Source: Candidatus Omnitrophica bacterium CG_4_8_14_3_um_filter_43_15 (GTDB taxonomy: Bacteria; Omnitrophota; Gorgyraeia; Taenaricolales; Taenaricolaceae). Taken from it: DNA of 45,700 nucleotides. The number at the start of each line of letters is the position of its first letter. Position 1 is the first letter of the stretch. This document shows positions 6,500-41,760 of the stretch, in pieces. The stretch spans positions 1 through 45,700 of the forward strand of contig PFHB01000042.1 in NCBI GenBank assembly GCA_002783585.1, written 5' to 3'. The translations under genes and the position numbers were made by a program. Under the pieces are notes generated by a model. That model was not told the DNA's origin and did not search any database. It was given only the letters and a program-made list of their open reading frames with translations.

Positions 6500-7525
6500 T
6501 TGAAAAAGATAGCAGTAGTAGGCGCAACAGGATATGCCGGCGAAGAACTCATAAAGATTTTATTAAAGCATCCTGCCTGCCAAATAACTTATATATGCGC
6601 CAAGATTGATAAGCCGCAAAAGTTCAGCGATATATTCTCCTGGGCCAAAGGCAGGCTTGATCTTGTTTGCGATAATCCTGATTTAAAGAAGCTAAATCAG
6701 AGCGCCGAAATCGTCTTTCTCGCGCTTCCTCATAGGACGTCTATGGAAATAGCCTCTGATATCTTAAAGGCAGGCAAAGTTGTTATTGATCTAAGCGCTG
6801 ATTACAGGTTTAAGGATGTTGCGGAATATGAAAAATGGTATGTTGTAAAACATAAGGATATGGCCAATTTAGATAAGGCTGTTTATGGGTTGCCTGAGCT
6901 TTATAAAGAAAAAATAAAAAATGCCAAATTGATAGCAAACCCGGGATGTTATCCTACAGCGGCCATTTTATCGCTTGCGCCGCTGTTGAAAGAAAAGATA
7001 TGCCAGGCAGAAGGTATAATAATTGATGCAAAAACCGGCTACAGCGGCGCAGGAAGAAAGCCTGGTAATGATCCTTTTATGAGCCAGATAAATGATAATC
7101 TCAAGGCATATAAGATAGATGCGCATCAGCATTCTCCTGAAATTGATCAGGAATTATCAAATGTTGCAGGCGAAAGCGTGAAGGTTGTTTTTGTGCCGCA
7201 TTTACTGCCGATAGAAAGAGGGATTTTAGAGACGATATATGTAAAAGCTAAAAGCGAAAAGCTAAAAGCGAAAAGTTTGATTGAATTATATAATAAATTT
7301 TACAAGGATGCGCCGTTTGTGAGAATAAAGAACGAAGACGAATTCCCGCAGCTTAGCGATGTGCAGAACACGAATTTCTGTGATATAGGCGTAAAGGTAA
7401 ACAGTGACGGCAAATTTATTATTATTGTCTCTGCCATAGACAATCTTACCAAGGGCGCCGCAGGCCAGGCAGTGCAGAATATGAATATTGTATGCGGTTT
7501 TAACGAAACAGAAGGTTTATTATGA
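6500..7525 (+). CDS. argC: N-acetyl-gamma-glutamyl-phosphate reductase
   Basis: ArgC reduces N-acetylglutamyl phosphate to the semialdehyde with NADPH, the third step of arginine synthesis. The 341-residue protein has the Rossmann start VVGATGYAGEEL, the catalytic Cys in NPGCYPTA and the catalytic His in HQHSPEIDQEL. The start is TTG at 6500, preceded by TAGGAG. Residues about 249-259 (KAKSEKLKAKS) are encoded by four tandem 7-base units AGCTAAA/AGCGAAA and fall in a variable loop before IELYNKFYKDAPFVRI. The stop overlaps argJ by 4 bases. It heads the 17-gene biosynthetic run. Confidence 0.96.
   Translation: MKKIAVVGATGYAGEELIKILLKHPACQITYICAKIDKPQKFSDIFSWAKGRLDLVCDNPDLKKLNQSAEIVFLALPHRTSMEIASDILKAGKVVIDLSADYRFKDVAEYEKWYVVKHKDMANLDKAVYGLPELYKEKIKNAKLIANPGCYPTAAILSLAPLLKEKICQAEGIIIDAKTGYSGAGRKPGNDPFMSQINDNLKAYKIDAHQHSPEIDQELSNVAGESVKVVFVPHLLPIERGILETIYVKAKSEKLKAKSLIELYNKFYKDAPFVRIKNEDEFPQLSDVQNTNFCDIGVKVNSDGKFIIIVSAIDNLTKGAAGQAVQNMNIVCGFNETEGLL
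7246..7275 (+). repeat. Heptanucleotide tandem array inside argC
   Basis: Four perfect 7-base units alternate AGCTAAA, AGCGAAA, AGCTAAA, AGCGAAA, followed by AG. They are translated in the argC frame as a Lys/Ala/Ser-rich loop. Similar heptamers occur at 15626-15651 (other strand) and 30801-30902. Confidence 0.85.
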
Positions 7526-9584: not shown

Positions 9585-10784
9585 ATGGATACCAAAAATA
9601 TTATATCAAAATACGAAAAGTTTGTGGCGCCCACATACACCAGGCTGCCGATAATCCTTACAAAGGGCGAGGGTTCAAGGGTCTGGGATTCAGAAGGCGC
9701 TGAATATCTTGATTTTTTCCCGGGCTGGGCAGTAAGCGGCTTGGGCCATTGCCATCCGATGGTGGTTAGCGCCATAAAAAAACAGGCGGGCTCAATGCTT
9801 CACGTATCGAATAATTATTATAACCTGCTTCAGGGCGAGCTTGCAGCGAAGATAGTTGAAAACTCTTTTGATTCAAAGGTGTTTTTTGCAAATTCCGGAG
9901 CTGAGGCAAACGAGGCGGCTATTAAGCTGGCAAGAAGGTATTTTCAGGTTGTAAAAAAAATAGACAAATACGAAATCATCACAATGCAGAATTCTTTTCA
10001 CGGCAGGACGCTTACAACCATAACAGCGACTGCGCAGCCTAAATACCAGCAGGGGTTTGCGCCATTGCCCGGAGGTTTTAAATATGTGCCTTTTAATGAT
10101 TTTAAGGCGCTTGAAGCCGCTATTACTGATAAAACCGCTGCTATAATGTTTGAATTGATACAAGGCGAGGGCGGTATAAATGTTGCGGATAAAGATTATG
10201 TTTTAAAAGTGAGAAAACTGTGCAATGAAAAAGATATCATATTAATAATCGATGAAGTGCAGACAGGAATCGGCAGGACAGGCACTATGTTTGCCTTCAG
10301 CCAGTATGGCATTATACCTGATGTAATGACCCTGGCCAAATCTTTAGGCGGCGGTATGCCTATAGGCGCAACTGTTATAGCAAAAAAGTATTCTGATGTA
10401 TTGCAGCCTGGCACGCATGCCTCGACTTTCGGCGGCAGCCCTATAGTTTGCGCCGCAGCGCTGGCTGTTTTTGAGGCAATAAAAAAAGAGAACCTGCTTT
10501 TAAATGTGAAAAAACAGGGCGATTATATTAAAGGCCTGCTTCTTGGCTTAAAGGATAAATATAAATTGATAAAAGAACTAAGAGGCCCGGGCCTGATGCT
10601 TGGAGTTGAGCTTAATATAGAGGGAAAGCAGATCGTGCGGGATTGTATGGCCATGGGGCTTTTGATTAACTGCACTCATGATACGGTTTTAAGGATAATG
10701 CCTCCCTTGGGCGTTACTGCGAAAGAAATAGACAAAGCGATAAAAATATTAGATGAAGTTTTTAAAAAGACAGAAAGAGCTTAA
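9585..10784 (+). CDS. argD: Acetylornithine aminotransferase
   Basis: ArgD is a class III PLP aminotransferase that converts N-acetylglutamate semialdehyde to N-acetylornithine using glutamate. The 399-residue protein shows FFPGWAVSGLGHCHP, NSGAEANEAAIKLAR, IIDEVQTGIGRTG, and the PLP lysine in TLAKSLGGGMPIGA. In many bacteria the same enzyme also acts on succinyl-diaminopimelate, but the dapL gene downstream suggests this organism does not need that activity. It is separated by 1 base from argF. Confidence 0.95.
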   Translation: MDTKNIISKYEKFVAPTYTRLPIILTKGEGSRVWDSEGAEYLDFFPGWAVSGLGHCHPMVVSAIKKQAGSMLHVSNNYYNLLQGELAAKIVENSFDSKVFFANSGAEANEAAIKLARRYFQVVKKIDKYEIITMQNSFHGRTLTTITATAQPKYQQGFAPLPGGFKYVPFNDFKALEAAITDKTAAIMFELIQGEGGINVADKDYVLKVRKLCNEKDIILIIDEVQTGIGRTGTMFAFSQYGIIPDVMTLAKSLGGGMPIGATVIAKKYSDVLQPGTHASTFGGSPIVCAAALAVFEAIKKENLLLNVKKQGDYIKGLLLGLKDKYKLIKELRGPGLMLGVELNIEGKQIVRDCMAMGLLINCTHDTVLRIMPPLGVTAKEIDKAIKILDEVFKKTERA

Positions 10785-30483: not shown

Positions 30484-30801
30484 ATGAAAAAATATATAGT
30501 TGTGTTTATAACCGCTTCCTGCCTTAAAGAGGCCAGGAAGATAGCGGATGCCTTGTTATCAAAAAGGCTTGTTGCGTGCGTAAATATTATAAAAGGCGTA
30601 GATTCTTTTTTTACCTGGAAGCGTAAAAAAGAACGCGCCAGAGAAATATTGTTAATAGCAAAAACAGAATTTTCAAAATTTGGTGAAGTTGAAAAACTCG
30701 TTAAAAGAAATCATTCCTACGAAACCCCCGAAATAATAGCAATCCCGATAGTAGCCGGCAGCAAGCAATATCTAAAATGGATAGAAGACTCAGTCAAGTA
30801 A
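30484..30801 (+). CDS. cutA: CutA1 divalent-ion tolerance family protein
   Basis: CutA1 proteins are very stable trimers with a ferredoxin-like fold; copper tolerance was proposed in E. coli but the role is unsettled. The 105-residue product shows the family segments VVFITASCLKEARKIADALL, VACVNIIKGVDSFFTW, LLIAKT and RNHSYETPEIIAIPI. ATG at 30484 is preferred to an in-frame TTG at 30475 because the protein then starts MKKYIVVFITA as in relatives. The stop codon coincides with the first base of a heptamer repeat array, and the next gene overlaps by 25 bases. Confidence 0.93.
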   Translation: MKKYIVVFITASCLKEARKIADALLSKRLVACVNIIKGVDSFFTWKRKKERAREILLIAKTEFSKFGEVEKLVKRNHSYETPEIIAIPIVAGSKQYLKWIEDSVK

Positions 30802-31631
30802 GCGTAAAGCGTATAGCGAAAAGCGCAAAGTTTAAGCGCAAAGTTAAAAACGTTTTAAGTTTTAAGTTTCAGTTTTGCGTTTTTCGCTTTGCATTTTGCG
30901 CTCTCTTTATATTATTTTTTATATCAGGTTGCGCCACGGTTTACAACTCTGCCACAGGCAGGCAGGAATACAGGTTTATAACTACTTCTGAAGAAGTTAA
31001 AATAGGCTCGGATATTGCCAGGCAGATAGAGGCAAGGTTTAAGGTTGTTAATGACCCTATAAGACAGGGGCGTTTAAATTATATAGGCCAGCGTTTGTCA
31101 GTTGTCTGTGACCGCCAGGATTTGATTCATACATTTAAGATTGTAGATGAGAAATCCATAAATGCCTTTACTATTCTCGGCGGGCATATTTATGTCCACA
31201 GCGGCCTGCTTGATTTTATAAAATCTGACAGCGAACTTGCTTCTGTGCTGGCCCATGAACTTGGCCATTCCGCGGCGCGCCATAGCGCGAAACGGCTTGA
31301 AACAGGTATGGGATATCAAATTTTAGCCGGCCTTGTTTTTCACGATTCAAAATATGCTGATCTGGCAAGAGCAGTTGACATCTCGGTTGATTTGATCATA
31401 CGTGGTTATAGCAGGCAGGATGAGCTCTTAGCAGACAGGCTTGGCGTCAAATATCTGATTAAATCTGGTTATAGCCCTCAGGCATCTATAGATGTTTTGA
31501 GGCGGCTGCAGGAAAAAGACGGCAGCGGCCCCCAGGGTATTGGTATATTTTTAAGCGATCATCCGTTGATGCCTGAACGAATAAAAACTGTAGCTCAGGA
31601 GATAGAGCGGCTCAAGACAGAAGATTTTTAA
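30777..31631 (+). CDS. M48-family metalloprotease lipoprotein with repeat-encoded N-terminus
   Basis: A 284-residue predicted periplasmic zinc protease of the M48 (BepA/YfgC, LoiP-like) type. HELGH at residues 160-164 binds zinc, and DELLADRLG downstream supplies the third ligand and conserved Asp. A lipobox FISGC gives Cys52 as the lipidated residue. The only ATG in frame before the lipobox is at 30777, inside cutA. The first ~45 residues (basic run KFKRKVKNVL, then a hydrophobic Phe/Cys/Ala-rich stretch) are encoded by the palindromic heptamer array 30801-30902, so the positive region and part of the hydrophobic core of the signal peptide are repeat-derived. The long basic N-region is unusual for a lipoprotein. 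BepA-type proteases take part in outer-membrane protein assembly, which fits the envelope context. Confidence 0.88.
   Translation: MDRRLSQVSVKRIAKSAKFKRKVKNVLSFKFQFCVFRFAFCALFILFFISGCATVYNSATGRQEYRFITTSEEVKIGSDIARQIEARFKVVNDPIRQGRLNYIGQRLSVVCDRQDLIHTFKIVDEKSINAFTILGGHIYVHSGLLDFIKSDSELASVLAHELGHSAARHSAKRLETGMGYQILAGLVFHDSKYADLARAVDISVDLIIRGYSRQDELLADRLGVKYLIKSGYSPQASIDVLRRLQEKDGSGPQGIGIFLSDHPLMPERIKTVAQEIERLKTEDF
30801..30902. repeat. Palindromic heptanucleotide array across the cutA end and M48 protease start
   Basis: Left half: AGCGTAA, AGCGTAT, AGCGAAA, AGCGCAA, a partial unit, then AGCGCAA (30801-30841). Right half carries the inverse: AGTTTTGCGTTTTTCGCTTT and TGCATTTTGCGCT (30871-30902). 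The arms can fold on each other with an AT-rich centre. The array starts on the last base of the cutA stop codon and is read through as the N-terminus of the protease. Confidence 0.8.
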
Positions 31632-41558: not shown

Positions 41559-41632
41559 GGGGCTATAGTAAAATGGGATTACGCTACGTTCGCAACGTAG
41601 AGTTCCGGGTTCAACTCCCGGTAGCTCCACCA
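41559..41632 (+). tRNA. tRNA-Ala (anticodon CGC), CCA encoded
   Basis: The 74-base sequence folds into a full cloverleaf: acceptor GGGGCTA/TAGCTCC, D stem GTAA/TTAC with loop AATGGGA, anticodon stem CTACG/CGTAG with loop TTCGCAA (anticodon CGC, reading GCG), a four-base variable loop, and T stem CCGGG/CCCGG with loop TTCAACT. The acceptor has the G3-U70 wobble pair that defines alanine tRNA. The 3' CCA (41630-41632) is encoded and lies inside the left arm of a 17-base inverted repeat. Confidence 0.95.
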
Positions 41633-41760
41633 TTCTGCTTCGCCCTTAGCTTGGAAAATTATGGTAAGGGCTACGCAGCAATCAGGCGAAGCAGAATGGT
41701 GCTACGAAGCCCATACCAGCAATAACGTTGAGTAGGGCGAAGTAGAACACTCAATTAAAA
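41628..41760. repeat. Inverted-repeat element abutting the tRNA-Ala 3' end
   Basis: CACCATTCTGCTTCGCC (41628-41644) and its exact inverse GGCGAAGCAGAATGGTG (41685-41701) flank a 40-base spacer, which itself has GCCCTTA/TAAGGGC (41642-41648 / 41665-41671). The left arm uses the tRNA's CACCA end. Related wording (TACGAAGCCC, AGGGCGAAGTAG) continues to about 41750. No gene is seen between the tRNA and rsmE (131 bases). Confidence 0.75.

Follow-up and report, generated by a model that had tools for sequence, protein, structure and literature searches.

Palindromic repeat elements are well known from Rickettsia and Wolbachia, where discrete repeat families lie within the reading frames of protein genes. 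Short tandem heptamer repeats are a separate bacterial theme, to which the cyanobacterial STRRs belong. Heptanucleotide repeats have been described in Geobacter metallireducens (PMC2700814), in the Beggiatoaceae, with the unit TAACTGA (PMC4679880), and in Xanthomonas and Nostoc, with G-rich units (PMC4692102). According to the Beggiatoaceae report, heptamers outnumber all other longer repeats in many genomes, and slippage at a seven-base unit has been proposed for bacteria generally (PMC4679880). Nematomorpha mitochondria have coding palindromes, long inverted repeats in translated genes with both arms coding (PMC6649704), tandem repeats add protein segments in Borg elements, where signal peptides are over-represented among the repeat proteins (PMC9879509), and in the TM-first emergence described in yeast, translated T-rich non-genic DNA gives membrane segments (PMC7005711). 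Heptamers, coding palindromes, repeat-made protein segments and the origin of membrane segments from T-rich DNA are each known singly; their combination, signal peptides built recurrently from repeat arrays at orthologous places, was not found in the literature that we searched. That search, outside of which most subscription literature lay, returned no report of repeat-built signal peptides at all.

The window analyzed here, 45,700 nt of contig PFHB01000042.1 from an uncultured Candidatus Omnitrophica bacterium, carries on its forward strand cutA (30484-30801, with its ATG at 30484; Pfam CutA1, E 2e-33) and, overlapping it, the gene for a 284-residue M48 metalloprotease lipoprotein (30777-31631 in the list of open reading frames). 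The predicted protein matches Pfam M48 (PF01435, E 2e-28) and the M48 peptidase of PDB entry 3c37 (E 4e-38), and with the active-site motif HELGH (HExxH) at 31254-31268 it fulfils the membership criterion of the family, a domain with HExxH; the NCBIfam models BepA and LoiP also match, with scores below their cut-offs. A sequence-only reading of this DNA had claimed that no ATG precedes the protease lipobox except one inside cutA. This was correct and can be extended, as neither GTG nor TTG is present in frame nearer the lipobox, leaving the ATG at 30777-30779, 25 nt inside cutA, as the sole candidate start. No Shine-Dalgarno sequence lies upstream of this ATG, whereas most other genes with array-coded signals have one. 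In two relatives, G001 and G035, cutA is also directly upstream of the protease gene; the genes overlap by ATGA in the former, and in the latter the protease start overlaps the cutA stop. From these overlapping starts we infer that ATG 30777 is plausibly the shifted relic of a start coupled to cutA. In several relatives Maf and the M48 lipoprotein share one stop-free open frame (L015:868-2169, L018:862-2169, also L025) with the signal peptide and lipobox mid-frame; in the first two, Pfam Maf and M48 are both matched. This joint frame is either a fusion or a case of in-frame translation restart.

At the junction of the two genes, with the TAA stop of cutA at its left edge, lies a degenerate heptamer palindrome of 112 nt (30796-30907, forward strand, centre 30851/30852). 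Among inverted repeats within 150 bp, it is the longest of the whole window. Its arms, 30796-30855 and 30848-30907, are 72% complementary; one half follows the pattern AAGCGNA... and the other ...TTTAAGT, TTTCGCT. Each arm contains one period-7 segment (30800-30830 and 30852-30899), and none of 1000 dinucleotide shuffles reached the lag-7 score of the whole. The A-rich left arm (30800-30846, +) reads AAGCGTA AAGCGTA TAGCGAA AAGCGCA AAGTTTA AGCGCAA AGTT... and the T-rich right arm (30852-30899, +; lag-7 segment score 16) TTTAAGT/TTTGCGT/TTTCGCT.... The M48 frame alone is open across the palindrome, the two other forward frames having several stops. An array of about 34 codons had been proposed from the sequence alone; the array itself is confirmed, but it covers residues ~7-43, about 36 codons, and its heptamers are degenerate and form no clean tandem. 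The hairpin proposed for the gene junction held up as well: the RNA of 30777-30940 folds with -50.4 kcal/mol (z = -5.4), and none of 200 shuffles was equally stable. Elsewhere in the window, 41628-41701 holds a perfect 17-bp inverted repeat with its arms 40 nt apart (CACCATTCTGCTTCGCC).

Translated from ATG 30777, the protease begins MDRRLSQVSVKRIAKSAKFKRKVKNVLSFKFQFCVFR / FAFCALFILFFISGC. The left arm encodes a polar, Lys/Arg-rich n-region, residues 1-37 having 12 K/R and 1 D/E (net +11), and the right arm accounts for the initial half of the hydrophobic core (LSFKFQFCVFRFAFC). The core reads FAFCALFILFF and is followed by the lipobox ISGC, identified by inspection. The core's second half and the lipobox, LFILFFISGC (30903-30932, +), are essentially non-repeat and end in the predicted lipidation site, Cys52 at 30930-30932. 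Thus the idea that one arm encodes a Lys/Arg-rich region and the other a Phe/Cys-rich core stands for the arms themselves, but LFILFFISGC lies outside and only part of the core is repeat. The Sec/SPII lipoprotein criteria of a positive n-region, a hydrophobic core and a lipobox ([LVI][ASTVI][GAS]C) are fulfilled. The length of about 15-30 residues, which is typical of such signal peptides and not strictly defining, is exceeded, as the n-region coded by the repeat puts 51 residues ahead of Cys52. We infer from sequence alone that the precursor takes the Sec route and receives its lipid at Cys52. Each codon of one arm pairs in register with a codon of the other, so that polar A-rich codons face hydrophobic T-rich codons, and the mean hydropathy of paired codons is -1.0 on the left and +2.0 on the right. 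Codons with A at the second position specify polar residues, and their complement, codons with T at the second position, hydrophobic ones. An A-rich to T-rich palindrome placed after a start codon is therefore close to a ready-made signal peptide.

The repeat had been suggested to have supplied or replaced an export signal, with a comparison of N-terminal length among orthologous proteases as a check. We compared 47 M48 loci of the bacterial class, scanning the 120 nt before the conserved Cys/lipobox; the set includes no genome of the source organism's family, and an empty site is thus not visible. The lipobox and mature start (xSGCATxYNPATG) are conserved in most orthologues, and the signal peptides are mostly 18-26 aa and non-repeat, compared with 51 residues here. 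At the level of sequence comparison, these short signals support the view that, specifically in this lineage, a conserved lipoprotein acquired its long repeat-coded n-region and half-core, whether added to the earlier signal or put in its place. The suggestion is in this sense supported, with signal function inferred and not measured.

A lag-7 array precedes the lipobox at 9 of the 47 loci and in none of 188 gene-body windows (Fisher 3e-7, events not all independent). Besides our own, these loci are in G001 (where the array is only at the detection threshold), G035, G011, G044, G031, G002, G091 and G081. The heptamers are TTTTAAG at our locus, ATTTTTC in G011 and G091, TACTTGC in G044, CTGGYTA in G031 and G081, and TTCTCTG in G002. 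G031 and G081 are congeneric, with a common array of differing length, and G011 and G091 are of one family with a common heptamer, so that neither pair is independent; the remaining cases differ in their heptamers. G001 and G035, with cutA upstream, also have period-7 DNA at the junction, in a sequence unlike ours. The sequence-only reading would have been refuted by orthologues with the same N-terminal peptide and unrelated DNA; what we find is the reverse, in that the peptides differ and period-7 DNA recurs, mostly in other sequence.

Arrays of our locus' heptamer family are dispersed genome-wide in both orientations, and with period 7 they fulfil the criterion for short tandem heptamer (STRR-like) repeats. 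The dispersal suggests that the shared family has spread within the genome. Fourteen arrays fit the strict pattern, and their placement depends on the strand that is read: all five T-rich-coding arrays fall in a signal peptide or membrane helix, compared with none of nine A-rich-coding arrays (p = 5e-4). The former encode signal peptides in this M48 protease, an Omp85 protein (352 aa), a TonB-dependent receptor and an exported-looking C82 protein, and a membrane helix in BacA; the latter lie in soluble proteins including fumarase, phosphoglucomutase, IleRS, FolC, TsaD, FMN reductase and semialdehyde dehydrogenase. The window has a second array of the family, at 7242-7275 (+), which presents its A-rich strand within the semialdehyde dehydrogenase ORF (6500-7525) and encodes the polar KAKSEKLKAKS. 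The TsaD array forms a small inserted loop when compared with structure 6nak. A PDZ protein of the same genome (L105:9875) has a palindromic signal made from other heptamers (z = -4.9). A 1507-aa ORF contains heptamer arrays at L102:8771-8796, 10521-10550 and 10581-10610, one pair of them palindromic, and the flanks in this ORF (TTVSGRSIKTTANHPYL) resemble intein or hedgehog-type repeats.

Arrays encode signals in other genomes of the class as well, among them those of LptE and a TonB receptor in G001, a LysM-M23 lipoprotein in G044 and a lipoprotein in G002. The last has a nested double palindrome (z = -4.3) with the polar-then-hydrophobic layout of our locus, which recurs in our own PDZ protein and in a G037 protein built on an octamer palindrome (MTRQVTKSQSHKVTRQRVNIFILFVSLCSCVLVSLFTPAHAQ). 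We rejected seven as the sole period, since octamer arrays behave alike and seven is not special. Also rejected was in-register codon pairing as a general rule, which holds for our locus and the G001 M48 gene and fails for the PDZ, G002 and G037 proteins. Other genic arrays were observed: a palindromic heptamer array in a coding region of G044 (L163:8770-8845) is translated through as polar sequence (KSPQSTVHSPQPKTKNSRPSTVDRRLLRSHTSP), and octamer arrays in G002 (L174:5820-5879, L176:294-545; GGTTTGCC/GGTTAGCC) are translated as ANRLTGKPANRLTGK.

In 1.37 Mb of unselected DNA from ten genomes, we find 61 lag-7 segments; lag 8 gives 18, lag 16 gives 12, and the remaining lags give 0-8. With 35 segments genic and 26 intergenic in a sample that is 84.5% coding, arrays are somewhat depleted in genes. 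Using admittedly crude gene calls and a crude signal-peptide rule, arrays occur in 6 of 276 signal-like N-termini and in 21 of 6187 gene-body windows (p = 0.0008); relative to other N-termini (8/984) the excess is weak (p = 0.064). Part of the N-terminal pattern may therefore be a general tolerance of repeats at gene ends. Three of the eight array-bearing 'other' N-termini (L147, L165, L203) resemble missed signals, which is a post hoc reading.

A strong hairpin at a gene junction, with T-rich DNA after it and an upstream ATG that has no Shine-Dalgarno sequence, could also be an intergenic element, either a terminator or a regulatory hairpin, whose frame is open merely by chance, the protease starting elsewhere or, its start lost, remaining untranslated. 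We consider this unlikely, since no alternative ATG, GTG or TTG exists in frame, a terminator scan found nothing, neither the mature domain nor the lipobox is damaged, and signals coded by arrays of the same family occur in other genes behind a clear Shine-Dalgarno sequence and ATG. Nor do we favor, at slightly lower standing, a discrete mobile palindromic element of the Rickettsia kind that was inserted whole and happened to supply a signal. The family is indeed dispersed in both orientations and also within genes, but its copies share heptamers without a fixed length, common ends or flanking duplications that could be seen (by eye, without formal alignment), most genic copies are single arms, and relatives have unrelated heptamers at the same place.

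Since the unit is not a multiple of three and the array sits at the 5' end, gain or loss of a heptamer would shift the frame and could switch the exported protease on and off; near-perfect arrays do exist in some relatives (AGAAAAT x5 in G044, TACTTGC x3). Such phase variation seems very improbable here, as the array in the window is strongly degenerate and palindromic, so that slippage should be rare, and period-7 arrays also lie inside the housekeeping genes TsaD, FolC, IleRS and AroA, where switching would be lethal or costly. Least credible of all is that ordinary T-rich signal-peptide DNA mimics period 7 by its composition, with no true repeat. Signal peptides are Phe/Leu-rich, and lag 8 too is raised in them, but dinucleotide shuffles of the same 47 regions predict 0.15 arrays (maximum 2) where 9 are observed, lags 5, 8, 10 and 11 give 0-1 per set, and our family is also found on its A-rich strand in soluble genes.

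Starting from the observed array, open frame, lipobox, recurrence and strand pattern, we think it probable that an array at the cutA-M48 junction became the 5' end of the protease gene and its signal, and that arrays throughout the class are filtered by the peptide they encode. The order of events is inferred, as are the start site, export and the origin of the array. A degenerate, palindromic heptamer array would have grown or inserted at the junction, displacing the original protease start and becoming new 5' coding region. The ribosome would initiate at ATG 30777, probably coupled to cutA translation, with the A-rich arm giving the positive n-region, the T-rich arm the first half of the core, and pre-existing DNA contributing LFILFFISGC; Sec would then export the protein, and Cys52 would receive the lipid. 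The layout would work because A-rich codons, which are polar, have T-rich, hydrophobic codons as their complement. More generally, short-period arrays, often palindromes, would arise or spread at many sites in genomes of the class. Within genes they would be retained where the peptide is tolerated: polar loops in soluble enzymes if the A-rich strand is read, signal peptides or membrane helices if the T-rich strand is. At the 5' ends of genes, the T-rich strand would be co-opted as a signal. We are evenly divided on the wider proposal that new export signals in the class come, recurrently, from a standing supply of palindromic short-period arrays, whose turnover drives convergent signal replacement even at the same junction. 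Under that proposal, repeat turnover would drive repeated replacement because an A-rich to T-rich palindrome behind a start codon reads directly as charged n-region and hydrophobic core.

Signal peptides vary greatly in sequence, and the raw material for new ones is rarely visible. Here it is, with unrelated repeat arrays apparently turned into signal peptides of orthologous proteases and other envelope proteins, suggesting that repeat DNA can serve again and again as raw material for them. The strand pattern, polar from one strand and membrane-targeting from the other, offers a simple rule, open to testing, on how coding regions filter DNA that is selfish or born of slippage. For annotation it carries a warning, as such N-termini resemble frame errors and are likely real.

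As with the Rickettsia and Wolbachia elements, palindromic repeat DNA lies in ordinary genes and is translated in frame; unlike those discrete families, the arrays here consist of degenerate heptamers in many different sequences, and copies read from the T-rich strand lie in signal peptides. Period-7 arrays are dispersed through the genome, as are the STRRs and the heptamers of Geobacter, Beggiatoaceae, Xanthomonas and Nostoc, those of Geobacter being genic too; in the parts of those reports accessible to us the repeats are mainly intergenic or regulatory and a role in signal peptides goes unmentioned, unlike here. In Borg elements the unit of a coding repeat is divisible by three and the product is a disordered region, not a signal peptide, whereas the arrays described here encode predicted signal peptides. 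The palindromes of Nematomorpha are perfect and extend over conserved protein, whereas here the palindrome is a lineage-specific N-terminus. Finally, TM-first emergence in yeast concerns whole new genes, whereas in these bacteria repeat-derived DNA provides new N-termini for established exported proteins.
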